A stretch of DNA of 48,830 nucleotides from Candidatus Competibacter sp. (GTDB lineage: Bacteria > Pseudomonadota > Gammaproteobacteria > Competibacterales > Competibacteraceae). Of the stretch, positions 30,914 through 48,772 are shown one piece after another. The number at the start of each line of letters is the position of its first letter. Positions within the stretch are counted from its first letter, which is position 1. The stretch spans positions 1 to 48,830 of the forward strand of contig JARSSH010000063.1 of assembly GCA_029624815.1 (NCBI GenBank). Reading direction: 5' to 3'. The notes under the pieces are model-generated. The model was given only the letters and a program-made list of their open reading frames with translations. It was not told the DNA's origin and searched no databases. A program made the position numbers and the translations under genes.

Positions 30914-30939
30914 AAGCGGCGGCCCCAGGGCCGCCGCTT
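30914..30939. terminator. Terminator between folA and peptide gene 1
   Basis: A perfect 11-bp GC-rich stem (30914-30924 with 30929-30939) with a CCAG loop lies between two convergent genes. AA flanks on one side and TTGCTTT on the other are compatible with termination from both directions. Confidence 0.75.
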
Positions 30940-30960
30940 GCTTTGGCGCGGGTGTCGAGA

Positions 30961-31221
30961 TTAGCCGATCACCACCGTCAACTGCTCGTAATGATCGACC
31001 TTGGTCTGGGTGCGCTGATACTTCTTGTGGAGCTTATCGACCTTGTACTTGATGAAGCCGATCTGCTTGAAGCCGCCGTTCTGGGTCCACTGGCTGACGA
31101 AGCTCCAGGAACCGCTGGTGGTGGTCGAACCGGTGTAGGTGTAGCCGCCGCTCAGTTTGGCCATGGCCTGACGGTCGAGGGTCTTGCTCAGGTCCAGGTC
31201 TTGGATGGTGAGGGTGCTCAT
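30961..31221 (-). CDS. Double-glycine leader peptide precursor, copy 1
   Basis: An 86-residue precursor. The 26-residue leader reads MSTLTIQDLDLSKTLDRQAM then AKLSGG; it has the hydrophobic-register pattern (L9, L11, L15, M20, L23) and GG ending recognised by C39 proteases. Predicted cleavage after Gly26 would release a 60-residue core that starts YTYTGSTTTSGSW, has no Cys, and has a Lys/Tyr-rich basic second half ending LTVVIG. The MST start is fixed by AAGAGGA 7 bp upstream on the minus strand. The promoter is of sigma-54 type (31278-31293). No modification or immunity gene is next to it. It may be a bacteriocin or another secreted signal or matrix peptide; the function is not known. Confidence 0.8.
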   Translation of the reverse strand: MSTLTIQDLDLSKTLDRQAMAKLSGGYTYTGSTTTSGSWSFVSQWTQNGGFKQIGFIKYKVDKLHKKYQRTQTKVDHYEQLTVVIG

Positions 31222-31294: not shown

Positions 31295-31595
31295 TATAAT
31301 AAATACACCAAGAAAATTTTATTATTTATTTGATTTTCATTAATTTTTTAAAATTATATCGAGGTTTTTCACAACTTGACAGGTCCATGAGTTCATTAAA
31401 ATAGATTTAAATAAACCAACTAAAAAGCATACATGTTTTGCATATAAAAACTATTTATCCGACCCAATGTCGAGCCATGGCCGTTTCTTCATGAAGCAAG
31501 CACAGAAATCAGGCTCGCAAACCGCAAGATTTTATGGTCTACCATCAATAATGCATCTCAATCATGAAGCCGGCTTAATGAACTGTGGTATTGCC
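31295..31595. other. AT-rich divergent control region between peptide gene 1 and the outer-membrane factor gene
   Basis: About 300 bases of much lower GC content than the neighbours, with A/T runs near 31310-31360 and 31400-31460. It probably holds the upstream activator site of the sigma-54 promoter and the promoter of the export operon. I could not assign a clear -35/-10 or -24/-12 element to the plus strand. AAACCAACTA (31413-31422) has a near match, TAACCAACCTA, at 42672-42682 upstream of copy 2. Confidence 0.5.
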
Positions 31596-33077
31596 ATGCA
31601 GCAACCGACCAGCGATTCACTTTTTGTCTCCACCGAGGCCGGCGTCCCGGGTAGGGGTGCCGCCGGAGTCCGCCGCAAGCTGACGAGGCTGCTGCGGGTC
31701 GGTGTCTGCCTGGTCGCGGTGGCGGGTTGCGCCAATACGGACGATCCAGGCTATCGGCGCCCGTCGCTACCCGAAAAGGAAGGCTGGACCTTAACGGGTG
31801 ACGGCCCGGTGTCGGCCACCGACGCCATTCGACCGGATTGGTGGACCCAGTTTGGCGATGTTTATCTGGATAATCTCGTGCGCCAGGCCATCGCCGGCAG
31901 TCAGGACGTGAAAATTCTGGCCGCGCGCATCGATGCCGCCGGCATCGGCCTGGAAGAGGAGCGGGCCAGTACCCTGCCCAAGCTGAGCTTGGGTGCCACC
32001 ACCGATTTTACCGCGACGCCGAACAACCAGGCGCGCGCCTTCGGGGTCAATTTGTCCGGTCTCAATTGGGAAATCGATCTGTGGGGCAAGGCCCGCAAGG
32101 GGATTCGTGCCCAACAAGCCGAATACAAGGCGTCCGAGGCCGATTATCGGGCCGGCTATCTGTCGTTGATCTCGGAAGTGGCTAGCGCCTATTTTCAAAT
32201 CCGCCAGTTCGACGAACAGATTGCGCGCCAACAATCCGGCCTGACCAAGAACCAGCGCATCCTCGGTATTCTGGAGCGCCAGCGGCGAGAGGGATTGGTG
32301 GCCAACACCCGGGTGCTGCAACAGCGAGCGGAAAACCGCGGCCTGCAACGGGATTTGCTCGATCTGCAACGGCAACGAACGCTGATGGAAAATCGCCTGG
32401 CAACCCTGCTGGGTATTCCGGCCGGCAATTTGCGCGTGCCCCAGGCGCCTCTCAGCCGTACCGTGCAACCCCTGGCCGTGCCCGCTGGATTGCCCGCCGA
32501 TCTGCTGGCGCGGCGGCCCGACATTCTGGCGGCCGAATACCGGGTGCTGCGGGCTTACGAACTGATCGGCAAGGCGCGACTGGCAAAGTTACCCTCGATC
32601 AGCCTGACCGGCCAGGGTGGGCTGGCCAGCGCCGCTCTGGGGGCTCTGTTGGGTAACTGGACGCTCGGCATCGGTTTGGTGGTCAACTTGCCCATATTCG
32701 ACCCGAGTCTCGATCTGGAGATCAAACGTACCCAGGTGGACCAGCAAATCGCCGAGGAAGAATATCGCAAGACCGTGATCCTAGCCTTCGAGGAGGTGGA
32801 AAATGCCTTGGTGAATCTGGCCAACCGTAAGCAACAACTCGATGAGCTGGAGCGACAACTCGACGATCTGCGCGTCATCGGCAACCAGACCGATGCTCAG
32901 TTACAAGCTGGCCTGGTCTCGCAGCTTGAGGTCTTCGAATCGGAGCGTACCCTGCTTTCGACCGAGCAGACGCTGTTGGAGGTCAAGCATCAGCGCTTAC
33001 AGGATATGGTCACTCTGTACAAGGCCATGGGCGGCGGCTGGCCCCGAGAGACCGTCGAATTGGCCATGGACCCATAA
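31596..33077 (+). CDS. TolC/OprM-like outer-membrane efflux lipoprotein
   Basis: A 493-residue outer-membrane factor that would form the trimeric exit duct of the peptide exporter. A basic, hydrophobic signal ends in a lipobox (VAVAGC, followed by ANTDDPGYRRP), as in OprM/NodT-type proteins. Two OEP repeats follow, with NWEIDLWGKARKGIRAQ, SEVASAYFQIR, DLLARRPDILAAEYRV and QAGLVSQLEVFESERTLLSTEQ. I chose the ATG at 31596; in-frame ATGs as far back as 31467 exist, but that stretch is AT-rich and reads like intergenic DNA. First gene of the export operon. Confidence 0.85.
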   Translation: MQQPTSDSLFVSTEAGVPGRGAAGVRRKLTRLLRVGVCLVAVAGCANTDDPGYRRPSLPEKEGWTLTGDGPVSATDAIRPDWWTQFGDVYLDNLVRQAIAGSQDVKILAARIDAAGIGLEEERASTLPKLSLGATTDFTATPNNQARAFGVNLSGLNWEIDLWGKARKGIRAQQAEYKASEADYRAGYLSLISEVASAYFQIRQFDEQIARQQSGLTKNQRILGILERQRREGLVANTRVLQQRAENRGLQRDLLDLQRQRTLMENRLATLLGIPAGNLRVPQAPLSRTVQPLAVPAGLPADLLARRPDILAAEYRVLRAYELIGKARLAKLPSISLTGQGGLASAALGALLGNWTLGIGLVVNLPIFDPSLDLEIKRTQVDQQIAEEEYRKTVILAFEEVENALVNLANRKQQLDELERQLDDLRVIGNQTDAQLQAGLVSQLEVFESERTLLSTEQTLLEVKHQRLQDMVTLYKAMGGGWPRETVELAMDP

Positions 33078-33086
33078 GTCGCGACC

Positions 33087-35516
33087 ATGCGTATCGTCCT
33101 GCGATCCCTTTCCCACCCCAAACTCGACGTTCTGAGCATCGCCGACGATCTTTGCTCGATCGGCCGCGACACCCCTCCCTTTGCTTCCGTCAGGGTCGCG
33201 GAAAGTACCGGGCTGGCGGTTCAGCACGCCTGCATCTTTCGGAAGGACAAGGAGTTTTATCTGATCGATTTCGGCGCTGGCGGCGCTACTCTGCATAATA
33301 GCCGGGCGCTGCCGCCGAAATACCCCATCAAGCTCGCCGTCAATGACGAACTCGGGTTTGCCGGCTTCAAGTTTCGGGTGGAGCGCGACAGCCGAGGCGA
33401 ACGCGAGGCCGTGTCTCCCCCGATGGCGCCGGTGCAACTGGCCCTGCTGCCGGTGTCCGACGGCGTCGCCGGCGAAGCCATCGCCATCCACGGCGTTCCT
33501 CCGCTCCTGATCGGCCGCGACATGCTGCTGTCGGCGCCGGTCGAAGACGCCAATGCCGTTCCCGCCGCCATCAAGCCTCTCTCTCGCTGTCACGCGTTAT
33601 TGTTTCTCAGGGGCGACAGCCTGCATGTGATGGATCTGGGCAGCACCAATGGTACCTGGCGCGGAACGGAACGGATTCCGCCCTATACCGCATTGTCGGT
33701 AGGCGCGGGCGACACCTTGGCCTTTGGCACGCTTCGGTTGAACTACACGGTACGGATTCGGCGAACCGACGATGCGCATGCGGCGAATCAGGAACCCGAC
33801 ATCGAAGAAACGGCCAATTCATCGGGGATCTATGCCGTTGGCAGGACTGTTTATATCAAGAAGGGAGCCAATTCGTTCCTGAAAATGCTGGCCGATCATC
33901 TTGACGAGACTCCCGCCGGACCGGTCAAGGAAAAAGCCGAGATCGCGACCCCCGATCCCGCCAGCCGAAAGCCCATGGGCAAGGCGCGGGCGTTTATCCG
34001 AGAGCTACGGACAGCCCTTGGCAGCGAACGGCCACGCCATCGGGCCTGGCTGGCGGGAGGAAGCATCGCCGTCGTATTGGCCGCGGTGGCGGTGCTGTAC
34101 CTCCATAACGCGCCGCAGCGGGAAATCAGGGCGCTGATCGAACAAGGGGACTATCGCGCCGGCCTGCTCCAGGCCGGCGAATACCTGAGCCAGCATCCCG
34201 GCGACGCCGAAATGTCGGCCCTGGCCTTGCAAGCGCTGGTCAAGGAAACCGTGCCCGGCTGGCAGGCGGACATCGAAGCCGGCCGTTTCGCCGCCGCCGC
34301 CGATCGACTCCGGAAAACCCAGGCTCAGGCCATACCGGAGAGCGGGGCCTTGCTGGGGCTGTTGGAATGGATCGGTGACCTGGAAAGCTTCCTGAGCGAA
34401 CGCGGTGGTCGCAATGCGCCGCTCACGCTGTTTCAGGACGAGCAAGCCATCTCCACGCTATTGGAGCGTTGGAACGCCGTCGCCCGAGACTATGAATTGC
34501 TATCGCTGAAGATCGCCGACTGGACACCCGATTTCCAGAACCTGCGCCGGCGGGTGCTGAGCCAACAACGCCTGCTGCGCAACGAGCAAGCGATCTACCT
34601 GAAGGCCATCGCCACCCTCGAACAGTCCCTGCGCCAGCTTCTGGCGCGAGGCAACGCCGATGAAGCATTGGCGCATCTGGACCGCTTCGCGCTGCAATAT
34701 CCGAGGATTGTGGGTCTGGCGCCATTGCGCGCGGATATCGCCCAGTTCGAGACACTGCAACGCGCCGCCAAGGATCAGGATCTGGGCAACCTGCTGGACT
34801 GGCGCGAGGTTGCTTTCAGCACGCCCTGGGTCCGCGAGACGGCGACTCGATGGCTGGAGGAACAACTACCTCCCGCCGAGGTGCTGGAACGCTACCAAAC
34901 GGCGCTGGCCGCCTGGAAGGTCGGTAATGTTCGGCAGGCCATTGCCCTGTTGAAACCGCTGCTTCGGGAGCGAGGTGGCTTGATCGTCGCGGCCAAGCTG
35001 GAGCATTTCCAGCAGGTGACGGACGCCTTCGAACGGTTACCGGCCGCTCGGGGGCAGCCGGACTATGGCGAACGCCTGTTGGGGTTGAGCCATATCCTGC
35101 ATCCCGCCGAGGACCGTTTTTTCCTGGACGCCCTCGCCGAGGATTTGCGTCTCCAGCGCCAAACGCTGTCCGCCCGGGCCAAAACCCTGTTTCAACAGGC
35201 CGCGAGCCACTGGGAGGAATATCGGCGGCGCGGCGGCATCAGTGGCCTGATGCGCCTGGAGCAAACCGTTTCCCCATCCTTCAAGCAGCAGACCCGGCGC
35301 TTGGCGCAAGCCTACGAAGCCGCCAGCGCCGGCGCGCGAATTTACGATCTGTTGCGCCAAGACTATCCTGAAACGACGCGCAAGCTGTACGAAGACATCC
35401 TGGCCGAAACCAGACGCCAGCGACAATCCCTCGCCGATCTCCGGCTGGTGATGAAATCCACCCTGCTGGACGCCAAACTGCAACTGTTGCCGGACCCACG
35501 GACCTTGTCGCCATGA
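33087..35516 (+). CDS. Membrane protein with two FHA domains and a large periplasmic helical region
   Basis: An 809-residue protein. The N-terminal cytoplasmic part carries two FHA-like domains (about 3-98 and 115-224). The second has a clear core (LIGRD near 141-145, LSRCHALLFL, DLGSTNGTW at 183-191); the first is more diverged (SIGRD, VQHACIF). A single membrane helix at about 321-340 is followed by about 470 residues of alpha-helical, TPR-like sequence predicted to be periplasmic. FHA domains bind phosphothreonine peptides. No Ser/Thr kinase is in the window. It begins 9 bp after the TolC-like gene and overlaps the HlyD gene by 4 bp, so it is part of the export operon. I know of no named family with this exact layout. 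Confidence 0.8.
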   Translation: MRIVLRSLSHPKLDVLSIADDLCSIGRDTPPFASVRVAESTGLAVQHACIFRKDKEFYLIDFGAGGATLHNSRALPPKYPIKLAVNDELGFAGFKFRVERDSRGEREAVSPPMAPVQLALLPVSDGVAGEAIAIHGVPPLLIGRDMLLSAPVEDANAVPAAIKPLSRCHALLFLRGDSLHVMDLGSTNGTWRGTERIPPYTALSVGAGDTLAFGTLRLNYTVRIRRTDDAHAANQEPDIEETANSSGIYAVGRTVYIKKGANSFLKMLADHLDETPAGPVKEKAEIATPDPASRKPMGKARAFIRELRTALGSERPRHRAWLAGGSIAVVLAAVAVLYLHNAPQREIRALIEQGDYRAGLLQAGEYLSQHPGDAEMSALALQALVKETVPGWQADIEAGRFAAAADRLRKTQAQAIPESGALLGLLEWIGDLESFLSERGGRNAPLTLFQDEQAISTLLERWNAVARDYELLSLKIADWTPDFQNLRRRVLSQQRLLRNEQAIYLKAIATLEQSLRQLLARGNADEALAHLDRFALQYPRIVGLAPLRADIAQFETLQRAAKDQDLGNLLDWREVAFSTPWVRETATRWLEEQLPPAEVLERYQTALAAWKVGNVRQAIALLKPLLRERGGLIVAAKLEHFQQVTDAFERLPAARGQPDYGERLLGLSHILHPAEDRFFLDALAEDLRLQRQTLSARAKTLFQQAASHWEEYRRRGGISGLMRLEQTVSPSFKQQTRRLAQAYEAASAGARIYDLLRQDYPETTRKLYEDILAETRRQRQSLADLRLVMKSTLLDAKLQLLPDPRTLSP

Positions 35517-36904
35517 TCGCTACCCACGACGCGAAATCCCACCCGAATGCCATGCTCGGCGAACAAAGCATCGAAGGGATCGAAATTCTTGCCGCCGAGC
35601 CCTCGCACTTGATTCGCGTCATGATCGCCTTGCTGGCCACCTTGCTGCTGGTGGCGCTGGCCTGGTCGTTTTTCGGCAAAGTGGGCGTGATCGTCAAAGC
35701 CCAGGGCCAACTGGGACCGGAAGCCGACGAGCGACTGCTGTTCGCGCCCATCGAAGGACAACTAAACGACCTCTACATCGTCGAAGGCGTGCCGGTCGCC
35801 GCCGGCGACGTGGTGGCGCGGGTCAACGCGCTGGGGGCCATGCAACTGGCGGCCAGCGCGCTGATGGCGCAGCTCAAGCTGCAATCGACCGAAGCTGCTT
35901 TCCGAACCTTTCCCGTGCAGAAACAGGCGATGGAAAAGGGCATCGAACTGATCCAGTTTCAGATCGAGAGCGCCGAGGAGGTCGACGATCGGCGCATTTC
36001 CCAAGGCATGACCCAACTGGCCGCCGACCAGCGGCTCAAGCTCGAACGGGCCCGGCTGAAGCTGGACGGCGCCCAGGATGCCCTGACTTTCACCCGCAAC
36101 GATTACGAGAAGCATCGCCGCTTGTTCGAATCCCCGGGCGGCGGTGGTATCGCCCGCTCCAAGGTCGAGGAAAAATTCAAGGAATACCAAGGCAAGATCG
36201 CCGAATTCGAGATTGCCAAGAACGAGCTGTCCGAATTCGAAGTCAAGCTGAACGAGGAATACGCCAAGCGCCAGGAAGAGCTGAAGGCGCGTTCGGAGCG
36301 CTTGCTGCAATACTATGCCCAGTTGGAAGAACGCAAGGCCCAGCTCGCCAACGCCGAACGGGAAAACCAGGTCTCGCTCAAGCTGGCTCGGGCGGAAGCC
36401 TCCGCCGCCGCCCAGATCAGCTTCGACGACATCGACGAGAACAACCTGCTGCTCATCAAGGCGCCGGTGGCCGGGGTCGTCACCCGGATCGGCGTCACTC
36501 AGCCCGGCGCCAAGATCGATCCCAAGGCACCCCTCGCCGGCATTGCCCCGGCCGACGCCCGGACGGTGCTGCATGTCGAAATCCTGGAACAGGATCGCGC
36601 CTTTCTCCGGGAGGGCATGCCGGTCAAGATCAAGTTCAACGCCTTCCCCTTTCAGCGCTTCGGCTTCATTGACGGCGTCCTGGAATTTATCGCGCCGACC
36701 GTTTCTCCCTCCGGCGATAACCCGCAGAACCGGGTGCAGGTCTACCGGGGGCGGGTCAGTCTGGCGCGGGACTATTTCACTTCTCCCGAAACCGGCGCCC
36801 GGATACCGCTGCGTTTCGGCATGATCGCCATCGCCGAAATCATGGTGCAGCAACGGCGGCTGCTCGATTTGGCCCTGGACCCCTTGCGTCGGGCCTCCGG
36901 CTGA
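35513..36904 (+). CDS. HlyD-family periplasmic adaptor protein
   Basis: A 463-residue membrane-fusion protein linking the inner-membrane exporter to the outer-membrane duct. It has one membrane helix (about 35-54), a lipoyl-like half motif (LLFAPIEGQLNDLYIVEGVPVAAGDVVARV), a long coiled-coil hairpin (about 110-300), the second lipoyl half (LLIKAPVAGVVTRIGVTQPGAKI) and a beta-barrel with a C-terminal GMIAIAEIMVQQRRLLDLALDPL typical of HlyD. It overlaps the FHA gene by 4 bp. Confidence 0.92.
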   Translation: MIATHDAKSHPNAMLGEQSIEGIEILAAEPSHLIRVMIALLATLLLVALAWSFFGKVGVIVKAQGQLGPEADERLLFAPIEGQLNDLYIVEGVPVAAGDVVARVNALGAMQLAASALMAQLKLQSTEAAFRTFPVQKQAMEKGIELIQFQIESAEEVDDRRISQGMTQLAADQRLKLERARLKLDGAQDALTFTRNDYEKHRRLFESPGGGGIARSKVEEKFKEYQGKIAEFEIAKNELSEFEVKLNEEYAKRQEELKARSERLLQYYAQLEERKAQLANAERENQVSLKLARAEASAAAQISFDDIDENNLLLIKAPVAGVVTRIGVTQPGAKIDPKAPLAGIAPADARTVLHVEILEQDRAFLREGMPVKIKFNAFPFQRFGFIDGVLEFIAPTVSPSGDNPQNRVQVYRGRVSLARDYFTSPETGARIPLRFGMIAIAEIMVQQRRLLDLALDPLRRASG

Positions 36905-36974: not shown

Positions 36975-37727
36975 ATGCAAATTGCCCGTATCGACGATGA
37001 GATCCTCACTGCCGACGATTTCGTTAAAATTCTCAAACTCGACAATCGCTTCAATACGCTGATCGAGCAGATTCTGATCGACAAACTGACGGTGCGGGCG
37101 GCGAAACAAAGTGGTATTACCGTGACCCCGGCCGAAATTCAGGAGCGGGTCGACCAATTCCGCCGGGTGGAAGGACTGCACCGGGCGCAGGATACCCATG
37201 CGTTTCTGGAAGCGCTGGGGGTGACTCTGGACGAATTCGAAAACCACATGACCGAGATCCTGTATCGGGAAAAGATGCGGGCGCAAATAACCCGCCAGGA
37301 ACAGATCGACGACTACTTCCGCCTGCATTCCCCGAAGTTCGACAGTGTCGAGATCAACCACATCACCGTGGACTCCGAAGGCAAGGCCCGCGAACTGCTT
37401 GCCCTGTTGGAGGATGAACCGATGCTGTTCGCCGAATTGGCGCGCGAACATTCCATGGATCTGGACAGCAAATTCAAGGGGGGGTACATGGGCAAGGTGC
37501 TGCGGGGGGCGTTGCCCAACGAGGTGGAAGCCAAGATCTTCAACGCCGCGGAGGGGGAACTGCTGGGCCCCTTCGCCTCCGACGACGAATTGATCTTCGA
37601 GATCTTTCAGATCAAGGCCAAACATGTCGCCCGACTCGACGAAGCCACCACCCGCGACGTCGCCAAGATGATCCGTAACGACTGGCTCGCGGCGCGGGCC
37701 CAGGAACATCGTCTGGAAGTCATCTAA
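36975..37727 (+). CDS. PpiC/SurA-like peptidyl-prolyl isomerase without signal peptide
   Basis: A 250-residue protein with an N-terminal helical SurA_N-like region and a parvulin domain (about 119-215: EINHITVDSEGKARELL, FAELAREHSMD, GGYMGKVLRGALP, AEGELLGPFASDDELIFEIFQI). No signal peptide or membrane helix is present, so it should act in the cytoplasm. Genes of this type accompany C39/ABC peptide exporters in cyanobacteria, where they may present or maturate the precursors. It lies 70 bp after hlyD and 32 bp before the exporter gene. GGAG lies 8-10 bp before the ATG. Confidence 0.85.
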   Translation: MQIARIDDEILTADDFVKILKLDNRFNTLIEQILIDKLTVRAAKQSGITVTPAEIQERVDQFRRVEGLHRAQDTHAFLEALGVTLDEFENHMTEILYREKMRAQITRQEQIDDYFRLHSPKFDSVEINHITVDSEGKARELLALLEDEPMLFAELAREHSMDLDSKFKGGYMGKVLRGALPNEVEAKIFNAAEGELLGPFASDDELIFEIFQIKAKHVARLDEATTRDVAKMIRNDWLAARAQEHRLEVI

Positions 37728-37759: not shown

Positions 37760-40700
37760 GTGAGTTCCGAAATTCTGCTCGAAACCCTGGCCGGCATCGA
37801 ATTGCTGGCTCCCATCGGCCGCGGCGACCTGGAACACCTGGCCGCGCGGGCTGAAATCCAGACCTACGACCTCGGCGATACGATTTTCACGGCCGGGGAA
37901 CCGGGGTTGGGCCTGTATATCGTCAAATCCGGCATGGTGCGCCTGCTGACCACGGAAGGCGGCAAGGACATCAGCATCGGGATCCGTCGCGCCGGCGAGT
38001 TGCTGGCCGAAACCGCCGCGCTGCGCGACTACCGCTTCGAATTCACCGCTCGCGCTTCCGGCAAGACCGAGTTGGTGTTCGTTCCCCGCGATGTCATCGC
38101 TTCGACGCTGGCCCGTCATCCGGTGGTCGGTGGTCTGCTGGCCCGTCAGGCCAGCATCAATGCCGCCGGCGGTTTCATCAGCCAGTTGTTCCAGTTGCGC
38201 GGCAAGGTCGATAAGGACGAACTCGTCCAACTGGTCGACAGCATCGGCATCAAGAAGGTGGCGGCCGGGGATGTCGTTCTGCAACAAGACAGTCTTGAAG
38301 ACCGTCGGCTTTATGTGGTGCGCCGGGGCGCGGTGCGCGGGACGCGGGTGGAGAACGGCGTCGAGTTATCCTTGGCGGTGTTGGGTCACGGGGAAATGTT
38401 CGGCGAAAACACCTGCCTGCTGGACGTGGCGCAGCCGCTGACCGTGCGGGCCGCCAGCGACGCGGTGCTGCTGGTGATTCCGCAGCAAACCGTGCGCGCC
38501 ATCCTGGAGCGCAATCCCCCACTCAAGGAGACGCTGCGAACCCGCATCCAGTTCACCGAGCACGAACTGGAGCGCCAGAAGCAATTGGCCGAGCGGCGCG
38601 GCCGGCCGCTCAGCCTGGATTTGCGCTCCAAGCCCGGCATCGGCGAGCGGGTGCTCAAACGGTTTCCGCTGGTCGAGCAGGCCGAGGAAATGGACTGCGG
38701 CGCGGCCTGCCTGGCGATGATCTGCAAGCACTACCGGATCGGTGCGACCCTGGGCAAGCTGCGCGAAATGGCTAACGTCACCACCGAAGGCGCCACCCTG
38801 GACAGCTTGGCGCAAGTGGGCGAATCGCTGGGGTTCACCACCCATGGCTTGCAGTGTACCTACCAGACCCTGCTGGGCTTCGAGCTACCGTTCATCGCCC
38901 ACTGGGAAGGGTATCATTACATCGTGGTCTACGGCGTTTCCAAGAACCAGGTCTGGGTGGCGGACCCGGGACTCGGTTTTCGCAAGCTGAGCGTCGCCGA
39001 ATTCGAGAAGGGTTGGACTGGCACTTGTCTGTTGTTCACCCCCCGCGCCGATCTGGCGCAAATCGAGGCCACCCGTTCCCCCTGGATGCGGTTCGTGCGG
39101 CTGCTGCGCCCTCACAAACCGGTGCTCGGCTATTTGATCCTGGCGACGCTGGTGATCCAGGTACTCGGTATCGCCCCCCCGATCATTCTCCAAAATATCC
39201 TGGACCGCGTCGTCGTACACCAAAGTCACGAACTGCTGAATCTGCTGATCGTCGGTTTTATCCTGGTGCAGGTCTTCATGCAGTTGACGGCCTTGATGCG
39301 CACTTATCTGACCCATTTCATGGTGCGCAATCTCGATTTTTCGATGATGTCGCAGTTTTTTCAACATGCGCTGTCCCTGCCGATTTCCTTTTTCGCCAAG
39401 CGCCGCACCGGCGACATCTTCGCGCGGTTTCAGGAAAATCAGACCATCCGCCAGTTTCTGACCCAGTCCACCATCAGCACGATGCTGAATCTGCTGATGG
39501 TGTTCTTCTACTTTCTGGTGCTGTTCCTGTACAGCGTCCAGATGACCCTGGTTCTGCTGGCCCTGATCGTGCCGATGGTGGTGTTGACCGTGGCCATCAC
39601 CCCGCACATCAAGCAATACGCGCGGCGCGACTTCGAAGCGTCGACCGACGCCGAAGCGGTGTTGATGGAAACCCTGAACGGCGCCGAGACCATCAAGGCC
39701 ATGGGTATCGAGCGCGCCATCCGGCTGAAGTGGGAACAAAAATATGCCAAGGCATTGAATGTCAAATATAAGGCGCAGGGTTTCGAGGCCTTGATCGGTT
39801 TCGCCAGTCAGTTGTTGCACGCGCTGACCGTGACCTCGGTGCTATGGGTCGGCGCCAATCTGGTGCTCGGCCAGCAGCTCACCATCGGCCAGTTGATCGC
39901 CTTCAACATGTTGATGGGCAGTGTGATGGCGCCGCTCATGGGCCTGATCGGGATGTGGGACGAGCTGCACGAAGCCGGGGTGGCGATGGAGCGGCTCGGC
40001 GACGTGCTGGACATGGAGCCGGAACAGAAACCCGAGGATCAACCCTCGCGCATCCTGCTGCCCAGCCTGCGCGGCGATATCCGCCTGCAAGACGTGTATT
40101 TTCGCTACGGTGGCAAGGAGACTCCCTATGTTCTGGAAAACATCGGTTTCGAACTGAAGGCCGGGGAAACCGTCGCCCTCGTCGGCCACAGCGGCTCCGG
40201 CAAGACCACGCTGGCCAAGCTGCTGGTGGGCTTCTATCCGCCCAGCGAAGGCAAGATTTCCATCGATGGCTACAATCTGAACCTGATCGACAAGGACTAC
40301 TATCGCGCGCAGATCGGCTATGTGATGCAGAGCAATCTGCTGTTTTCCGGCACCGTCGCCGAGAACATCGCCTTGGGCGAGAGCAATCCCGACCGGCGCC
40401 GCATCGTCGAAGTGGCCCGCTTGGCCGACGCCCACGGTTTCATCAGCAAGCTGCCGCAAGGTTACGAACAGACCGTGGGCGAGCGGGGCGTCGGCTTGTC
40501 GGGTGGCCAAATCCAGCGACTCTGCATCGCTCGCTCCTTGTACCGGAACCCTCGGCTGTTGATCTTCGACGAAGCCACCTCGGCCCTCGACACGCAATCC
40601 GAGACCAACATCCTTCGGAACCTGTCGGGGGTTCTGGAAGGCCGCACCGCCCTGGTCATCGCCCATCGGCTCAGCACCATCATGAACGCCGACAAGATCC

Positions 40701-40810
40701 TGGTTCTGTATCAGGGGCGCATCGTCGAGGAAGGGACTCACCAAACACTGTTCGACCGCCAGGGCATGTACTATCAGTTGATCCACAAGCAGATCGCGGC
40801 GGCGGCATGA
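37760..40810 (+). CDS. Peptidase-containing ABC exporter with two cNMP-binding-like domains (C39-ABC)
   Basis: A 1016-residue exporter of the HetC-like type. In order: two cyclic-nucleotide-binding-like domains (about 12-125 and 145-262; the second has FGEN at 214-217), a C39 peptidase (about 303-428), a six-helix ABC membrane domain (about 450-735) and a nucleotide-binding domain. The peptidase is intact: Gln307, catalytic Cys313 (EEMDCGAACLAM), His386 (GYHYIVVYG) and Asp402 (VADPG). The NBD has Walker A GHSGSGKT (809-816), LSGGQ (913-917), Walker B LLIFDEAT (933-940) and switch His969. Start is GTG at 37760; an ATG at 37746 is closed by a stop after five codons. It should cleave double-glycine leaders and export the cores. 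In cNMP domain 2 the usual PR(S/T)A of the phosphate cassette reads PLTVRA, so ligand binding is uncertain. Confidence 0.95.
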   Translation: MSSEILLETLAGIELLAPIGRGDLEHLAARAEIQTYDLGDTIFTAGEPGLGLYIVKSGMVRLLTTEGGKDISIGIRRAGELLAETAALRDYRFEFTARASGKTELVFVPRDVIASTLARHPVVGGLLARQASINAAGGFISQLFQLRGKVDKDELVQLVDSIGIKKVAAGDVVLQQDSLEDRRLYVVRRGAVRGTRVENGVELSLAVLGHGEMFGENTCLLDVAQPLTVRAASDAVLLVIPQQTVRAILERNPPLKETLRTRIQFTEHELERQKQLAERRGRPLSLDLRSKPGIGERVLKRFPLVEQAEEMDCGAACLAMICKHYRIGATLGKLREMANVTTEGATLDSLAQVGESLGFTTHGLQCTYQTLLGFELPFIAHWEGYHYIVVYGVSKNQVWVADPGLGFRKLSVAEFEKGWTGTCLLFTPRADLAQIEATRSPWMRFVRLLRPHKPVLGYLILATLVIQVLGIAPPIILQNILDRVVVHQSHELLNLLIVGFILVQVFMQLTALMRTYLTHFMVRNLDFSMMSQFFQHALSLPISFFAKRRTGDIFARFQENQTIRQFLTQSTISTMLNLLMVFFYFLVLFLYSVQMTLVLLALIVPMVVLTVAITPHIKQYARRDFEASTDAEAVLMETLNGAETIKAMGIERAIRLKWEQKYAKALNVKYKAQGFEALIGFASQLLHALTVTSVLWVGANLVLGQQLTIGQLIAFNMLMGSVMAPLMGLIGMWDELHEAGVAMERLGDVLDMEPEQKPEDQPSRILLPSLRGDIRLQDVYFRYGGKETPYVLENIGFELKAGETVALVGHSGSGKTTLAKLLVGFYPPSEGKISIDGYNLNLIDKDYYRAQIGYVMQSNLLFSGTVAENIALGESNPDRRRIVEVARLADAHGFISKLPQGYEQTVGERGVGLSGGQIQRLCIARSLYRNPRLLIFDEATSALDTQSETNILRNLSGVLEGRTALVIAHRLSTIMNADKILVLYQGRIVEEGTHQTLFDRQGMYYQLIHKQIAAAA

Positions 40811-40851: not shown

Positions 40852-42135
40852 ATGAGACCCTTCACCTTCGGCCAATCGACCACGCCCGGTTACGGCGAGC
40901 TGCTGGAAAAGATCGAAATCCTGCGCTCCACGCTGCGTTGGGCCACGCGGCTGGAACGCGAGGAGATCCGGCGCTTGCTGGGACAATGCAACGCACTCCG
41001 CGAGGACGTGATGAGCCTGTCGCGCCGGGAGCGCTTCGTCCAGTCCTCCGCCGCCCTGGAGGATTTGCGAGCGCCGCCACCCGAACAAGCGCCCACGGCG
41101 GAACAACGGCGCGCGGCGCTGCTGGAACGGGAATTTACCTTCGATGGGGTGTTCGGGGACAATCCCAAGCTGTTGGAAACCCTGGAAATCGCCGAAAAGG
41201 CCGCGCCCACCGATCTGCCGGTGCTGGTTCGCGGCGAGAGCGGTACCGGCAAGGAACTGCTGGCCAAGGTGGTGCATACCAACGGTCGGCGTAGTCAGGG
41301 GCCGTTCGTTTCCGTCAACTGCGGCGCCATACCGGAAAATCTGGTGGAATCGGAGTTGTTCGGTCATAAGAAAGGGGCATTTACCGGAGCGGCCAGCGAT
41401 CGCAAGGGCAAATTCGAAAGCGCCAATCTCGGCACGATTTTTCTGGACGAGATCGGCGAATTACCCTTGTCGGGCCAAGTCAAGCTGTTGCGGGTACTGC
41501 AATCCCAGGAAATCCAGCGGGTCGGTTCCGACAGCCCGATCAAAATCGACGCGCGCATCGTCGCCGCCACCAACCGCGACCTGTTGGCCATGGTGCAAGC
41601 GGGACAGTTCCGGGAGGATTTGTACTATCGGTTGAGCGTGATCGAAGTCACCGTGCCGCCGTTGCGGGAACGCCGGGACGAGATTCCGTTGCTGATCGAT
41701 TTTTTCTGCGACGCGGCGGCGGAAAGACTGGGCAGGAGTCCGCTCAGGCTAAGTCCACGGTTGCGGCAATTTTTGCTCGACTATGGGTTTCCGGGCAATA
41801 TCCGCGAATTACACAACTTGATTTTCCGCATGTCCTGTCTGGCCGGCGATACCGCCGATCTTCCTCACCTGCCGGACGCCCTGCGAAGCAACCCGCCCAG
41901 CATTCGCCCGGCGACGGATGCGCCGCTCGAATCCGAAGCGCCCCTGTCGCTGGGCGAGGTCAAGAAAACGGCCGGTGACGCAGCGGAAAAACGTTTTCTC
42001 GAACAAGGATTGCGGGAAGTAAACGGGCGGGCGGTGGAACTGGCACGCCGCCAGGGGATGAACCGTTCCCATTTGCAGACCTTGCTGAAAAAGCACGGTT
42101 TGAGCGCCAAGGCGTTTCGCCCCAAGAAGGCGTAA
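40852..42135 (+). CDS. Sigma-54-dependent transcriptional activator without receiver domain
   Basis: A 427-residue bacterial enhancer-binding protein. The first ~95 residues are helical and coiled-coil-like with no receiver, GAF or PAS domain recognised. The AAA+ domain has Walker A GESGTGKE (128-135), the sigma-54-contacting GAFTGA loop (175-180), Walker B TIFLDEIGE (195-203) and arginine-finger segments (REDLYYRLSV, PPLRERRDE). A Fis-type helix-turn-helix ends the protein (ELARRQGMNRSHLQTLLKKHGL). It is the last gene of the export operon, 41 bp after the exporter, and is the obvious activator of the two sigma-54 peptide promoters. How it is controlled is not evident. Confidence 0.93.
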   Translation: MRPFTFGQSTTPGYGELLEKIEILRSTLRWATRLEREEIRRLLGQCNALREDVMSLSRRERFVQSSAALEDLRAPPPEQAPTAEQRRAALLEREFTFDGVFGDNPKLLETLEIAEKAAPTDLPVLVRGESGTGKELLAKVVHTNGRRSQGPFVSVNCGAIPENLVESELFGHKKGAFTGAASDRKGKFESANLGTIFLDEIGELPLSGQVKLLRVLQSQEIQRVGSDSPIKIDARIVAATNRDLLAMVQAGQFREDLYYRLSVIEVTVPPLRERRDEIPLLIDFFCDAAAERLGRSPLRLSPRLRQFLLDYGFPGNIRELHNLIFRMSCLAGDTADLPHLPDALRSNPPSIRPATDAPLESEAPLSLGEVKKTAGDAAEKRFLEQGLREVNGRAVELARRQGMNRSHLQTLLKKHGLSAKAFRPKKA

Positions 42136-42173
42136 AAAAACCAGCGGAGATCCGCTGGTCTCCGCTGGTTTTT
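42134..42173. terminator. Bidirectional terminator between activator and peptide gene 2
   Basis: AACCAGCGGAG (42139-42149) pairs with CTCCGCTGGTT (42160-42170), flanked by an A-run and a T-run, so it works both ways between convergent genes. The 10-bp loop holds another CCGCTGGT, so a shorter alternative hairpin (42141-42148 with 42151-42158) can also form. Confidence 0.88.
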
Positions 42174-42188
42174 GCGAGGGTGCTGGCC

Positions 42189-42449
42189 TTAGCCGATCAC
42201 CACCGTCAACTGCTCGTAATGATCGACCTTGGTCTGGGTGCGCTGATACTTCTTGTGGAGCTTATCGACCTTGTACTTGATGAAGCCGATCTGCTTGAAG
42301 CCGCCGTTCTGGGTCCACTGGCTGACGAAGCTCCAGGAACCGCTGGTGGTGGTCGAACCGGTGTAGGTGTAGCCGCCGCTCAGTTTGGCCATGGCCTGAC
42401 GGTCGAGGGTCTTGCTCAGGTCCAGGTCTTGGATGGTGATGGTGCTCAT
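42189..42449 (-). CDS. Double-glycine leader peptide precursor, copy 2
   Basis: An 86-residue precursor identical to copy 1 except Ile for Leu at position 4. It has the same AKLSGG leader end, the same 60-residue core and the same AAGAGGA ribosome-binding site. Its own sigma-54 promoter lies at 42506-42521. It is convergent with the activator gene, from which the 42134-42173 terminator separates it, and divergent from ada. The perfect conservation of the core, with no synonymous change seen, indicates very recent duplication or gene conversion. Confidence 0.8.
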   Translation of the reverse strand: MSTITIQDLDLSKTLDRQAMAKLSGGYTYTGSTTTSGSWSFVSQWTQNGGFKQIGFIKYKVDKLHKKYQRTQTKVDHYEQLTVVIG

Positions 42450-44767: not shown

Positions 44768-45484
44768 TCAATAGCGCCACTGTTCATGCCGCAAGGGCAG
44801 TTGGTTCAGCAAATCCCGGCGATGTCGCCAGTCGGGCAGGAAACAATCCATCAGCCCGATAAAACGGGCGTTGTGGGTCGGCTCCAACAGGTGGGCCATT
44901 TCGTGGACGACGAGGTATTCGAGGCATTCTCGCGGCTTCTTGGCGAGTTCGGCGTTGAGGCGGATGCTGCCGGCCGTCGGCGTGCAACCGCCCCATTTGG
45001 TTTTCATCCGCTGGACGAAGAACCGCCGCACGCGCACCCCCAGCAACGGTTCCCACTGGGCGATGAGCGGCGGCGCGGCCCGCTTGACCTGTTCCCGATA
45101 CCATTCGGCGACGATGGCTTCCCGCCGCGCCTCGTCGGTGCCGGGTCGAACCCGCAACACCATCCGGTTGTGTTGCAGTTCCACCGCTGGCGCGGCATCG
45201 CCTTCCACGATGGTGAGCAGATAGCGCTTTCCCCATGCAAAGTGGCTCTCGCGATCCAGATATTCGCGAGGCGTTTCCCGTTCCTGTTCCCGAAGCGTGC
45301 GCTGTTGCCGTTTGATCCATTCCAGCTTCGAAATCGCGAAGACGCGGATGGTGTCGAGGCTCATGCGCCGGGGGGCGGAAATCCGCACTTGGCCCAGCGG
45401 CGGATACACGCTGAGATGGACATTCTTGATGTCTTTCAGCACGACATCCACCGCGATGTCGCCCAGTTGAAGCCGCGTCGCCAT
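44768..45484 (-). CDS. YgjP/M48-like zinc metallopeptidase associated with type I restriction genes
   Basis: A 238-residue protein of the YgjP (DUF45) family with an HExxH zinc site (H194, E195, H198) and a third ligand His204 in LVVHEMAHLLEPTHNARF. The KTKWGGCTPTAGSIRLNAEL segment is typical. Genes of this family often sit directly behind hsdR in type I restriction loci; here its start overlaps the hsdR stop (TGATG). Its role there is unknown. It appears intact although its hsdR neighbour is broken. Confidence 0.88.
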   Translation of the reverse strand: MATRLQLGDIAVDVVLKDIKNVHLSVYPPLGQVRISAPRRMSLDTIRVFAISKLEWIKRQQRTLREQERETPREYLDRESHFAWGKRYLLTIVEGDAAPAVELQHNRMVLRVRPGTDEARREAIVAEWYREQVKRAAPPLIAQWEPLLGVRVRRFFVQRMKTKWGGCTPTAGSIRLNAELAKKPRECLEYLVVHEMAHLLEPTHNARFIGLMDCFLPDWRHRRDLLNQLPLRHEQWRY

Positions 45485-47508
45485 CAGTATTCCGTCTGCG
45501 CCTTGATGATGAGGAAGATTCGCTCCACTTCGGCGAGGTCTTGCAGGACGCCATGCAGCGCCGCTTTGATCACCTGCTTGCGGGCCTGGACGCCGCGCCA
45601 GCCGTCGGGGCGTACTTGGCGAACGGTCGCGTCGATCTGGAGCGCCAACGTGATCTCTTGTAATTGCGCCGATATCTTTTCGTGGAAAGCCGGGCCGGTC
45701 AGGTGTTCCTTGATGATCTTGCGACGGACGTTGTTCTCGATGGTTTCGGCGATGGCGTTTCGGTTGCCCTCCAGTCCGCCGAGTTGCCTGGCGATGGCCT
45801 CGGCGATGCCGGTCTTGACGATCAGTTCCAGCAGGCCCATGTCGTCGAAGGGGGAAATCTTGCGCGGCTCGTCGGCTTCGATGTAGGTGTCGATGAGGTG
45901 GCGCATGTCGGCCTCGTAGGGCTTGAGGTCGAGGGTTTCGCCGCTGGCCCGGCGGACGATTTCACGGACGTTCAGGTAGTGGTCGAGTTGCCGTTTGATG
46001 CGCGCGCTGTCGGTACTGTCGTAGCCGGCGGCTTCCAGTTCGTCGGCGATGTTGGCGTAGGCGCGCACCAGGGCGACGGTCGCCTTATAGAGCGCGGCGC
46101 GCTGCGGTTCGCGCTCCTTCAGGTCGGACGGGATTTCGGTGTTGCCGCAGAAATAGCGGATGTGCTCCAGTTCGCCCTTGGGCGGTTCCATCGACTCGCA
46201 CAGCAAGGCCAACGTTTCGAGGGCGGCGTCGAGCCGTTCCCGGCCTTTCTTGAGGTGATCTTGCAGCAGCACCTCGGGATCGGCGCCGCCCGCGCCGTGA
46301 TCCAGTTCGGAGGTGTAAACCGCGATGGCGTTCTCGACCTTCTTGAACAGATCCTTGTAGTCCACGATGTGGCCGAAGTCCTTGTCCTCGCCGTCCAGCC
46401 GGTTGGTGCGGCAGATCGCTTGAAACAGGCCGTGGTCCTGCATGGACTTGTCGATGTAGAGATAGGTGCAGGGTGGCGCGTCGAAACCGGTGAGCAGTTT
46501 GTCCACCACGACGAGGAGCTTCATGTTCGCCGGTTCCTTGACGAACAACGCCTTCGCCCGCTCTTCGTAGGTTTCGGTCCTGGACATGCCCGGCCGGGCG
46601 TTCACGTCCTTCAGCAGTTCGGTGTAGGTGTTGTAGATGAACTGCTTGTCAGTCTCGGTGTTCGCGCCGGTTTCCTCCAGCGTCACGTCCTTCGCCTGCG
46701 GGTTATGGGAGGTGACGACCGCGCATTGGTCCTTGAACGGCGTCTTCTGGAACAGCGCGAAATACTTGCACGCCTCGTAAATGCTCGACGCCACCAGGAT
46801 GGCGTTGCCTCGTTCGCTGGACAGGCGCGGCTTGACGCTGAAATCGAAGACGATGTCGCTGACCACGCGATCCATGCGCGACTTCGAGCTAAGCACATTT
46901 TGCATCGTGCCCCACTGTCTTTTCAGCTCTTCCTTCCGCCAGTCGTTGAGCGCCTTGGTCTTGGCTTCGAACCAAGCGTCGATCTTGGTTTCGGAGCCGA
47001 GCCGCTGATCGATGTCGCGCGCCTCGTAGACCAGATCGAGCACCACCTCGTCCGCCACGGCCTCGCTGAATTTGTAGGTGTGGATGTAGCCGCCAAAGAC
47101 TTCGAGGCTGGTCTGCTTGTCCTTCTTGAGCAGCGGCGTGCCGGTGAAGCCGACGAAGACCGCGTTCGGCATCATCGCCTTCATCACCTTGTGCAGCTTG
47201 CCGCTTTGGGTGCGGTGGCATTCGTCCACGAACACGAACACCTCGCCGACCGTGGCGCTGGGCTGGCTTTGCAGTTCCGCGATGAAGGCGTCGAAATCGT
47301 CCACGTCCTTGCGACCGAACTTGTGGACCAGCGAGCACAGCAGACGTGGCGCGGTCTGGCCGAGTTGGCTCATCAGCTCGCGGCCGTTGCGGGTGCGCTG
47401 GATCGGTCCGCCGGCCTCGGTGAAAACCCGCTCGATCTGCTTGTCCAGTTCGTCGCGTTCGGTGACGATGGCGACGCGGGCGTGGGGGTCGTTCTCCAGA
47501 ATCCACTT
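45484..47508 (-). pseudogene. hsdR: Type I restriction enzyme R subunit, 5'-truncated
   Basis: The remaining frame encodes the translocase and C-terminal parts of HsdR: KWILENDPHARVAIVTERDELDKQ (start of helicase domain 1), VDECHRTQSG (motif II), FTGTPLL (motif III), KLLTGFDAPPCTYLYIDKSM and AICRTNRLDG (motifs V-VI), then the C-terminal helical domain. The N-terminal nuclease domain and the Walker A motif are missing: homology begins abruptly at 47508 beside the transposase stop codon. An internal ATG at 47373 could still give a 629-residue product, but it could not bind ATP normally or cut DNA. hsdM and hsdS are not in the window. Confidence 0.88.
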
Positions 47509-48772
47509 TCATGTGGACGGAAGGATGGTGTAATTCCATTCGCCGTGAAAGTCTGCCCTCTCAATTTTGATCTTTTCAAGTTCTTCGTCGGTCACATGGA
47601 TTCCTTTCGGGTAGGCGTTGGTATCGAGTTCGGCTGCAATCTTCAGCCCCGTCCGGGTGGTCGTGCCCGCGATCAAATTCACCGCGACTTCGTGGCTGAA
47701 CAGGGGCTTTCCCCGCCAATTCATGCTGATGTGGCTGAACATCCGATGCTCGATCTTGTTCCACTTGCTGGTTCCCGGCGGGAAATGGGACACGGAGATG
47801 CGCAGCCCCGTCTGGTCGGCAAGCCGCCGCAGGGCGACCTTCCAAAGGCGCACCCGCGATCCGTTGCCGCCACCGCCGTCGGCGGTCACCAGCAACTCCG
47901 TGGCCTCCGGGTAACGCGGGCGGCCCATCTTGTCCCACCAGCGCCGCAACGTCTCCACGGCAAACTCGGCCGTGTCATGGTCGGTGCCGACACTCACCCA
48001 GCCCGCGTGGGCGGCCGGGTCGTATACGCCGTAGGGATTGGCCTTGCCCAGCGCCTTGTCCACGAAGTCATAAACCCGCACCGGCTCGGGATCGCCCTGG
48101 GGACGCCATTCCCGCCCGCCGTTCTTGAAATCCCCGACGAGTTCCTTTTTCTTGGTGTCCACGGACACGACCGGTTGCCCGCGCCGCTGGAAATCCTCGG
48201 CCCGCCCGTGGATAAACCGGAACTGGGCGTCCCGGTCCGGATGGACGGAGCCTTCCTTGGTTTTTCGGTTGCCTTGGAGGCTATACCCCAGGCCGCCCAG
48301 CAAGGACGCGACCGTCTGGTGGCTGACCCGGTGGCCCTGGGCCGCCAGCGCGTCCGCCAACTGCCGGGTGCTGCGGCACGTCCAGCGAAGGGGGCTTTCC
48401 GGATCGCCCCGCGTTGTCGGCTCGACCAATGCCTCCAGCGCCGACAACAACCCCGGCCCTTGTCGGGTCAGTTTTTTGCGGCCACCACCCGCTTTCCGGA
48501 TTCGACCCGGAAGGCTGGAGCCTACATCTTGGGCTTTTTCGGTTTCTTCACGATGCAGCGTCACTCGCGACAGGCCGGTGGCTTTGGCAACGATACTTTG
48601 CCCGCCATAGCCAATGGCTTCCGCCTCTGCGGCCGCCCATACCCGGCGACCACGTTCGTCCAGCACGCCCGACAGGCGCTCAAATTTTCCACGAACTTTG
48701 CTGATGATATCCTCTTTATCCATGAGGACATCTTGCGTTCAGTGAGCCAACTTGTACAACTTATTTTTTGAC
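47505..48772. mobile_element. ISAzo13-type insertion sequence, ends unresolved
   Basis: The element comprises the transposase gene and short flanks. The left limit is set by the break in hsdR homology near 47508. The right limit is uncertain: the 107 bases after the transposase start contain no hsdR 5' sequence, so this is not a simple insertion that leaves both hsdR halves side by side. I found no convincing terminal inverted repeats between the two edges. Confidence 0.55.
47509..48723 (-). CDS. ISAzo13-family (Rhodopirellula-type) transposase
   Basis: A 404-residue DDE transposase. An N-terminal helix-turn-helix region (GYGGQSIVAKATGLSRVTLHRE) is followed by the catalytic core, with Asp189 (VVSVDTKKKELVG), Asp282 (LLVTADGGGGNGSR) and Glu325 (WNKIEHRMFS). 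The CRSTRQLADAL and HRVSHQTVASLLGGLGYSLQGNRK segments are typical of this family. It is complete. Its stop codon lies exactly at the junction with the truncated hsdR frame. Confidence 0.92.
   Translation of the reverse strand: MDKEDIISKVRGKFERLSGVLDERGRRVWAAAEAEAIGYGGQSIVAKATGLSRVTLHREETEKAQDVGSSLPGRIRKAGGGRKKLTRQGPGLLSALEALVEPTTRGDPESPLRWTCRSTRQLADALAAQGHRVSHQTVASLLGGLGYSLQGNRKTKEGSVHPDRDAQFRFIHGRAEDFQRRGQPVVSVDTKKKELVGDFKNGGREWRPQGDPEPVRVYDFVDKALGKANPYGVYDPAAHAGWVSVGTDHDTAEFAVETLRRWWDKMGRPRYPEATELLVTADGGGGNGSRVRLWKVALRRLADQTGLRISVSHFPPGTSKWNKIEHRMFSHISMNWRGKPLFSHEVAVNLIAGTTTRTGLKIAAELDTNAYPKGIHVTDEELEKIKIERADFHGEWNYTILPST

Follow-up and report, generated by a model that had tools for sequence, protein, structure and literature searches.

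The usual textbook picture of type I secretion is a pipe of three parts, powered by nothing but ATP and substrate. Colicin V-type and other C39 systems (peptidase-containing ABC transporters, PCATs) and the cyanobacterial PteB/EbfG system combine a C39-ABC protein and a HlyD-type adaptor with small proteins that carry double-glycine (GG) leaders, and we know of no FHA protein, kinase or phosphatase in colicin V-type or PteB/EbfG systems. A 48,830-nucleotide stretch of Candidatus Competibacter sp. (contig JARSSH010000063.1, positions 1 to 48,830; hereafter the window) likewise encodes a C39-ABC protein, a HlyD-type adaptor and GG-leader small proteins, and its operon also holds a gene for a membrane protein with two FHA domains (33087-35516, plus strand; hereafter the FHA protein). 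We consider it fairly probable that this protein is a dedicated inner-membrane subunit and phosphothreonine switch of a tripartite C39-ABC peptide exporter.

The nearest published ideas for a C39 type I exporter with such a switch come from two systems. In the threonine phosphorylation pathway of type VI secretion systems (T6SS), which comprises PpkA, PppA and Fha, with TagQRST in Pseudomonas aeruginosa, a kinase, a PP2C phosphatase and an FHA protein serve a secretion machine, as appears to be the case here; its TagR protein carries an FGE/SUMF1 domain. Two papers describe this precedent (PMC10482370, PMC3953482), and TagR helps PpkA according to the former (PMC10482370). Unlike in T6SS, the machine here is a C39-ABC exporter, and its FHA protein combines two FHA domains with a membrane helix and a large helical arm. 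The second system is Rv1747 of mycobacteria, which is described as an ABC exporter with two FHA domains and with the Ser/Thr kinase PknF in control (PMC3908365). The original prediction for this locus had held that FHA proteins are well known around type VI and type VII secretion but not as fixed parts of C39-ABC export operons; its novelty is qualified by Rv1747/PknF, in which FHA domains already regulate an ABC exporter but are fused to the transporter, whereas here the reader is a separate membrane protein and the window's ABC protein has no FHA match. To our knowledge, the Rv1747 system is also without C39, HlyD or an outer-membrane channel. No literature describing the present operon was found, as judged by title and start of abstract in a search that left most subscription papers and all preprints outside, and the papers listed by a text search with the leader letters look unrelated by title.

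Conservation of the FHA gene within C39-ABC export operons

Six plus-strand genes form a run in the window, encoding an outer-membrane efflux protein (OEP), the FHA protein, HlyD, a PpiC-type rotamase, the C39-ABC protein and a sigma54 activator, with gaps of 9, -4, 70, 32 and 41 nt. These neighbours are as originally described, and so is the overlap with hlyD, as the stop of the FHA gene and the start of hlyD have ATGA in common at 35513-35516. A GTDB-based genome collection was scanned with the part of the ABC protein that spans its cyclic nucleotide monophosphate (cNMP)-binding and C39 domains; the best 80 of 270 relatives were kept and, with two loci from another search, made up 82 ABC-centred loci. 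These contained ABC (82), PpiC (80), the sigma54 activator (79), FHA (65), HlyD (65) and OEP (64). All six genes were present in the same order on one strand in 61 of the 82, and four more had FHA but were one gene short (the activator in three, OEP in one) with the remainder in order; thus, FHA gene order was kept in 65 of the 65 loci holding it.

The other 17 loci, mostly from Noviherbaspirillum and other Betaproteobacteria, were without FHA, HlyD and OEP together. At least one of them (L062) is a contig end, the FHA, HlyD and PpiC genes of which sit at the end of another contig (L138), and all 17 genomes contain an FHA homologue elsewhere, some in pieces. In 19 flanks from these 17 split genomes, OEP adjoins FHA in 17 of 17 and HlyD in 16 of 17; the sigma54 activator remains with the ABC gene in the 17 split or cut loci. 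The operon can therefore break in two, and FHA mostly keeps with the adaptor and channel and not with the pump. In one genome (G749; L128 and L133), a single contig carries the FHA gene in what appear to be two pieces separated by ∼600 kb, of which the second is accompanied by HlyD, possibly through an inversion within the gene or a misassembly, and in a Cupriavidus draft genome (L055:3370-6270) it is split into several frames.

Searches with the FHA protein itself gave the same picture. Among 369 genomes of the class, three had a full-length match (the window's own, G163 and G196, the latter two in the operon), and three others had partial matches (G330, G167, G233), of which the one opened, G330, was a distant operon. 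The G330 region (L144:14445-19965, L113) encodes an ABC protein of 37% identity, HlyD, PpiC, a sigma54 activator and a 480-aa FHA protein. A 398-genome draw from the phylum, which overlaps the class draw, again gave three full-length matches (the window's own, G605 and G671, the latter two in the operon) and four partial matches (frames of 251-294 aa; G474, G397, G537 and G611), of which the two opened, G474 and G397, were not such operons. One outcome that would have spoken against the original prediction, homologues mostly outside such operons, was thus not seen, as the full-length matches opened in both draws were all in the operon.

In G605's family, the FHA protein was found in 56 of 200 genomes. 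The family is probably Burkholderiaceae, since 13 of the 56 proteins match those of named Paraburkholderia, Caballeronia or Burkholderia loci at 100% identity (rounded); the remaining 43 are 47-93% identical to a named locus. The FHA gene lies between OEP and HlyD in all 56 carriers. When 25 carriers were opened with wide flanks, PpiC and ABC were present in all 25 and the activator in 22, and in the other three the region or contig ends inside or just past the ABC gene. A shorter form of the FHA protein, which matches the profile only to position 611-639 of 833, occurs in 16 of the 56; at these loci (L175-L190) FHA still sits between OEP and HlyD, with PpiC and ABC. Clustering of open reading frames (ORFs) to find conserved neighbours was dropped, as antisense frames swamped it.

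The claim that the FHA gene is a fixed part of C39-ABC export operons is thus strongly supported. A gene that merely hitch-hikes in the operon has nothing in its favour beyond general possibility and is hardly credible: its order is kept in every locus that holds it, at 28-34% identity to the window protein, and the OEP-FHA-HlyD trio is mostly retained after the operon splits; this explanation was rejected.

Co-inherited kinase and PP2C phosphatase genes

A search of the 200 genomes with PF00069 brought to light a Ser/Thr kinase near the FHA gene, with a frame mostly of 690-830 aa that consists of an N-terminal part, the kinase domain, a hydrophobic stretch (by eye), a proline/alanine-rich linker and a DUF4384-like C-terminus below the Pfam cut-off. 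The full-length kinase profile matched 56 of the 200 genomes, by eye the identical set to the FHA carriers, and the C39-ABC profile matched the identical 56, whereas a PP2C of one subfamily was found in 58, namely those 56 plus G677 and G938. Measured with the best such kinase per genome from the PF00069 search, the kinase lies <25 kb from FHA in 40 of the 56 carriers, on the same contig but ≥105 kb away in seven, and on another contig in nine; ∼0.4 of 56 would be expected within 25 kb by chance under simple assumptions (one kinase placed at random in 7 Mb). Carriage is patchy, as 39 listed members of six of the seven genera are without FHA, kinase and ABC. In the four shorter-form kinase regions opened (L204, L205, L208 and L209), the kinase is downstream of the operon.

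Of 83 ABC-centred loci, 60 carry a PP2C gene, which in most cases directly follows the activator and in two is distant, at 41-45% identity, and the kinase is <10 kb from FHA in seven of eight split-operon genomes searched, the exception being G750. Among 27 carriers searched for the kinase, 13 have a full-length or two-piece orthologue and four (G957, G960, G962 and G963) a partial or T6SS-type match; the T6SS setting of the G957 and G960 kinases was checked. Of 10 kinase regions opened, 6 have a gene for an FGE-sulfatase protein separating the kinase from OEP, which recalls the help that TagR gives PpkA, and an FGE relative occurs in 44 of the 83 loci. Three of the six are fusions of a caspase domain (Peptidase_C14) to the FGE-sulfatase domain (L200:5917-8190, L202:4529-6505, L207:5854-7842). 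A defence-system reading was set aside, the PADLOC matches being to generic kinase, ATPase, caspase and phosphatase.

In a midpoint-rooted tree of 49 kinase-domain rows, which contains several long branches, 23 exporter rows formed one group (100/99) with three unlabelled rows and with three T6SS rows, the latter drawn from two Nitrococcus genomes, apart from all other kinases included, so that the exporter kinase groups with T6SS-linked PpkA; exporter rows were labelled by full-length orthology, and physical linkage is shown for part of them. A TR(I/L/V/M) motif, mostly after E/D, is present in the N-terminus of 20 of 23 exporter-system kinases and is similar to the FHA-docking motifs of GarA. 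Queries with TssB, C, K, L and M detected no T6SS core genes in 128 exporter loci, save one weak TssM-like match; the controls from other genomes covered three of the five queries and recovered TssM, TssL and TssK. Together, the kinase tree and the exporter beside the kinase indicate a module that would work like the T6SS threonine phosphorylation pathway, with a kinase related to it and a peptide exporter as its machine.

Inheritance of a kinase and phosphatase with the pump suggests that such pumps are switched on and off by protein phosphorylation. A broader possibility, which we advance only tentatively, is a class of phospho-gated type I exporters in which a T6SS-like cassette (PpkA-type kinase, PppA-type phosphatase, FHA reader and often an FGE or caspase-FGE protein) is common to T6SS and to C39-ABC peptide exporters of Beta- and Gammaproteobacteria through sharing between them, the two-FHA membrane protein is an additional structural subunit linking the reading of phosphothreonine in the cytoplasm to the HlyD/outer-membrane conduit, and channel assembly or firing is switched by phosphorylation. 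If true, the co-inherited kinase-phosphatase-reader set would make a type I pump a signalled machine, like some T6SS, and many environmental bacteria would gain phosphorylation-timed release of small proteins.

The FHA protein as a candidate phosphothreonine switch

A genuine gene of 809 codons (809 aa, ATG start) occupies 33087-35516, with the following parts:

33087..35516, plus strand: two-FHA membrane protein, 809 aa (Pfam matches, AlphaFold model)
33087..33386, plus strand: FHA1 (residues 1-100); phosphothreonine-site residues, retained by most aligned homologues, have degenerated here (A44, G66)
33432..33764, plus strand: FHA2 (residues 116-226); GR, SRCH and NGT present here
33837..33890, plus strand: conserved linker motif around T254 (residues 251-268), candidate phosphothreonine site (62-protein alignment)
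34032..34106, plus strand: transmembrane helix (residues 316-340; hydropathy and model)
34110..35486, plus strand: helical, TPR-like C-terminal part (residues 342-800), putatively periplasmic (models)

The architecture claimed for this protein in the original prediction was borne out. Two separate FHA matches (40.7 and 28.9 bits) both exceed the Pfam cut-off of 20.7 bits, and model residues 2-102 match FHA crystal structures (Z 14.7; root-mean-square deviation, rmsd, 2.0; 96 residues aligned). The sole strong hydrophobic stretch is at residues 321-339 (Kyte-Doolittle mean 2.19; next best 1.39). An AlphaFold model of the whole protein (mean predicted local distance difference test, pLDDT, 83.8) shows two strand-rich N-terminal domains, a helix at 316-340 and then nearly all helices; modelled separately, residues 342-809 reached a mean pLDDT of 92.9 and were helical except for two 2-residue strand marks. 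Pfam TPR_19 was matched by 7 of 36 homologues at E 0.01, and Foldseek matched the C-terminal part to no solved structure with an E value of 0.001 or lower. The best VIA-align match, a TPR co-chaperone (Z 9.6, rmsd 20.4 over 200 residues), supports at most a TPR-like arrangement of this part, and other folds are possible. The 36-protein alignment used for models is without L023 and L024, and the 62-protein FHA alignment is without L025, L026, L055 and L089, in which the FHA frame is truncated, fused or broken.

In the 62-protein alignment, the site residues of FHA1 are largely retained (R in all 62, S in 61, N in 58), while the window's FHA1 has A44 in place of S and G66 in place of N, a degeneration that the original prediction had missed. 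L025 and L026 are the window's nearest relatives, and FHA1 of L026 looks as degenerate as that of the window. All 62 proteins have T254, located in the linker that leads from FHA2 to the membrane, and all 62 have V or I as the +3 residue; FHA domains often prefer such residues at +3.

The FHA protein resembles SctD/YscD, the inner-ring protein of type III secretion systems (T3SS), in its FHA-like cytoplasmic domain and single membrane helix. The FHA-like domains of T3SS SctD/YscD are thought to be phosphorylation-independent binding modules, and the periplasmic domains of these proteins are alpha/beta and ring-building, unlike the C-terminal part here, which is modelled as helices. GltG, a gliding protein of Myxococcus with an FHA domain and a membrane helix, gave a weak match over residues 165-321 (14.8 bits, far under the NCBIfam cut-off of 650). 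The likeness to SctD/YscD raises the alternative of a purely structural inner-membrane scaffold, in which the FHA folds would bind independently of phosphorylation and the kinase and phosphatase would act elsewhere. All 36 aligned members match Pfam Yop-YscD_cpl at E 0.01 (the window's protein scores below the cut-off), and the degenerate FHA1 of the window, the state of FHA2 in the homologues and the want of a kinase orthologue in the window's genome, all given below or above, point the same way. No phosphorylation was reportedly observed for Vibrio cholerae TagH (PMC10482370). The scaffold is nevertheless unlikely in our judgement, as FHA1 retains its R, S and N almost throughout the alignment, and it would leave unexplained the coincidence of FHA, ABC and one kinase in the same 56 genomes (56/56/56), with PP2C genes nearby.

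Several observations weigh against the switch that we favour. In 61 of 62 homologues, the columns of FHA2 that should align with GR hold other residues (K is at the first column in 60), so that the window's protein, with FHA1 degenerate and GR in FHA2, is the mirror image of its homologues and each protein keeps at most one classical site. No structure match (Foldseek, VIA-align) indicated a binding partner for the C-terminal part. The K/R counts in the 15 residues flanking the helix average 2.2 before and 2.6 after it (36 sequences) and leave orientation undecided by charge, so that the C-terminal part is periplasmic only as we infer it. G750 is without HlyD within the 16-kb region around its FHA gene. 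Fisher's test for the co-occurrence (5e-51) overstates the independent evidence, since the counts come from related, non-independent genomes of one family, and the 13 of 56 FHA proteins at 100% identity to named loci mean that the 200-genome sample overlaps the ABC-centred one. Ten of the 27 carriers searched gave kinase-domain matches only (the window's genome, G163, G196, G954, G955, G956, G959, G966, G967 and G969); of the last three, G966 aside, G967 and G969 hold a more distant kinase within their own ABC loci (L078, L103). Finally, no full-length orthologue of the exporter-system kinase was found in the window's genome, which gave kinase-domain matches only (best E 1.6e-33), and its closest PP2C belongs to a T6SS cluster that lies on a different contig (C29).

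The original suggestion of a coupling to phosphorylation state thus stands in part: a matching kinase and PP2C occur in many relatives, but neither is linked to the window's locus and the full-length kinase orthologue is absent from its genome. That genome contains 13 kinase matches, 12 of them over the cut-off, and the kinase there would have to be an unlinked, non-orthologous one. A kinase beside an FGE gene on C26 was considered and rejected, as it has a different architecture and branches outside the PpkA-type group. The T6SS cluster (L250, C29:7000-26900) has Pfam matches to IcmF, DotU, VasE, ImpA_N, VipA, a T6SS FHA protein, TagF and PP2C.

Under the switch that we favour, the sigma54 activator would turn on the double-glycine precursor genes, the C39 domain would remove the leader, and the ABC protein would send the peptide out via HlyD and the outer-membrane channel. 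The PpkA-type kinase and PppA-type PP2C, linked or co-inherited in many relatives, would set the phosphorylation of a threonine, for which the candidates are T254 in the linker of the FHA protein, the N-terminal TR(I/L/V/M) motif of the kinase, and some other partner. Phosphorylation of T254 or of a partner would make the FHA protein change partners; the binding of FHA to the phosphorylated threonine would move the helical arm, and the moved arm would allow or localise assembly of the HlyD-channel conduit. The phosphorylation, the direction of regulation and the contact with HlyD or the channel are those that we infer for this model.

Probable peptide cargo, sigma54-type sites and neighbouring genes

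Two minus-strand peptide genes, absent from the original account, flank the operon, one per side:

30961..31221, minus strand: double-glycine precursor peptide gene copy 1, 86 aa, of which the leader takes up 26 residues and closes with LSGG, leaving a mature part of 60 aa
31270..31294, minus strand: sigma54-type -24/-12 site upstream of peptide copy 1, TTGGCACGCCTTCTGCT (score 11 of 12)
42189..42449, minus strand: double-glycine precursor peptide gene copy 2, 86 aa; differs from copy 1 by one residue
42498..42522, minus strand: sigma54-type -24/-12 site upstream of peptide copy 2, TTGGCATGTCTTCTGCT (score 10 of 12)
30915..31214: 300-nt direct repeat copy 1, 94% identical to copy 2; it covers the greater part of peptide gene 1
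42143..42442: 300-nt direct repeat copy 2

The double glycine is the signal cut by C39 peptidases, and a leader pattern, drawn up post hoc after the first candidate list had been viewed, matches 142 peptides in 66 of 83 loci. At both window genes, a GG-N10-GC sigma54-type site lies 72 nt upstream of the ATG. Scored within 250 nt upstream against what we take to be the sigma54 -24/-12 consensus, 89 of the 142 peptides reach at least 9 of 12, whereas mononucleotide shuffles give an expectation of 5.15, and other ORFs (ATG frames of ≥300 aa) reach it in 62 of 1027 cases; at least 11 is reached by 38 of 142, compared with 0.05 in shuffles and 2 of 1027. Many peptides without a site are, by eye, later members of tandem arrays. 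Asparagine plus glutamine make up 19.5% of the 142 mature parts vs. 8.0% of the six core proteins of the window; they account for 7 of the 60 mature residues in the peptide of the window itself. Recurrent N-G-N-N stretches in the mature peptides of related loci are somewhat reminiscent of amyloid subunits. No family was matched below E 0.05 by ten peptides compared with Pfam or four compared with NCBIfam. From sequence, the double-glycine peptides are the probable cargo, and the operon, in which a HlyD-type adaptor and an outer-membrane factor accompany the C39-ABC exporter, is probably a C39 type I exporter of small peptides. The other operon genes in the window are as follows:

31467..33077, plus strand: outer-membrane efflux protein (NodT/TolC class); true start may be further downstream (Pfam OEP 171 bits; TIGR01845 over cut-off)
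35513..36904, plus strand: HlyD-type periplasmic adaptor, 463 aa (Pfam)
36975..37727, plus strand: PpiC-type rotamase, 250 aa, by eye without signal peptide (Pfam)
37760..40810, plus strand: ABC exporter with two cNMP-binding domains, C39 peptidase (residues 302-430), ABC membrane and ATPase domains (Pfam)
40852..42135, plus strand: sigma54-dependent activator, AAA+ domain and lid (Pfam; no receiver domain among the Pfam matches)

The ABC protein matches Peptidase_C39 (135.7 bits), ABC_membrane (172) and ABC_tran (114.9), and its C39 domain has C313, H386 and D402, which we take to be the Cys-His-Asp triad. The two cNMP-binding domains ahead of the C39 domain, also missed in the original prediction, are a possible nucleotide input to the pump.

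These features bear on another alternative, in which the kinase/PP2C/FHA set governs expression: phosphorylation would cause the membrane FHA protein to retain or let go of the sigma54 activator or an FHA-GAF-HD-GYP protein, and the peptide genes would be transcribed only with the exporter in place. It accords with the want of a receiver domain among the activator's Pfam matches, the sigma54-type sites at the peptide genes, the cNMP domains of the ABC protein and the FHA-GAF-HD-GYP relative found in five of eight opened split-trio regions and 7 of 83 ABC-centred loci. We nonetheless hold it to be quite improbable: where the operon has split or been cut, the activator stays with the ABC gene, and FHA is found beside OEP and in most cases HlyD, an arrangement that speaks for a role at the channel. 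In one split-trio region (L137:4464-6500), the FHA-GAF-HD-GYP gene is directly upstream of the OEP-FHA-HlyD trio, a possible link to cyclic di-GMP.

Sigma54-type sites for the main operon are weak; within 600 nt upstream of OEP, 17 of 65 loci score at least 9 and 6 of 65 at least 10, and the window's best is 9, at 540 nt. The PpiC rotamase resembles TIGR04500 peptide-maturation proteins (87 bits, below the cut-off of 180) and may work on the precursor peptide in the cytoplasm. By the N-terminal half of the ABC protein, the nearest named locus is that of Candidatus Competibacter phosphatis (L025), at 95%. Near the contig end, the minus-strand region 45484-48723 has SWI2/SNF2 and type I restriction R-subunit domains beside a DDE_Tnp_ISAZ013 transposase.

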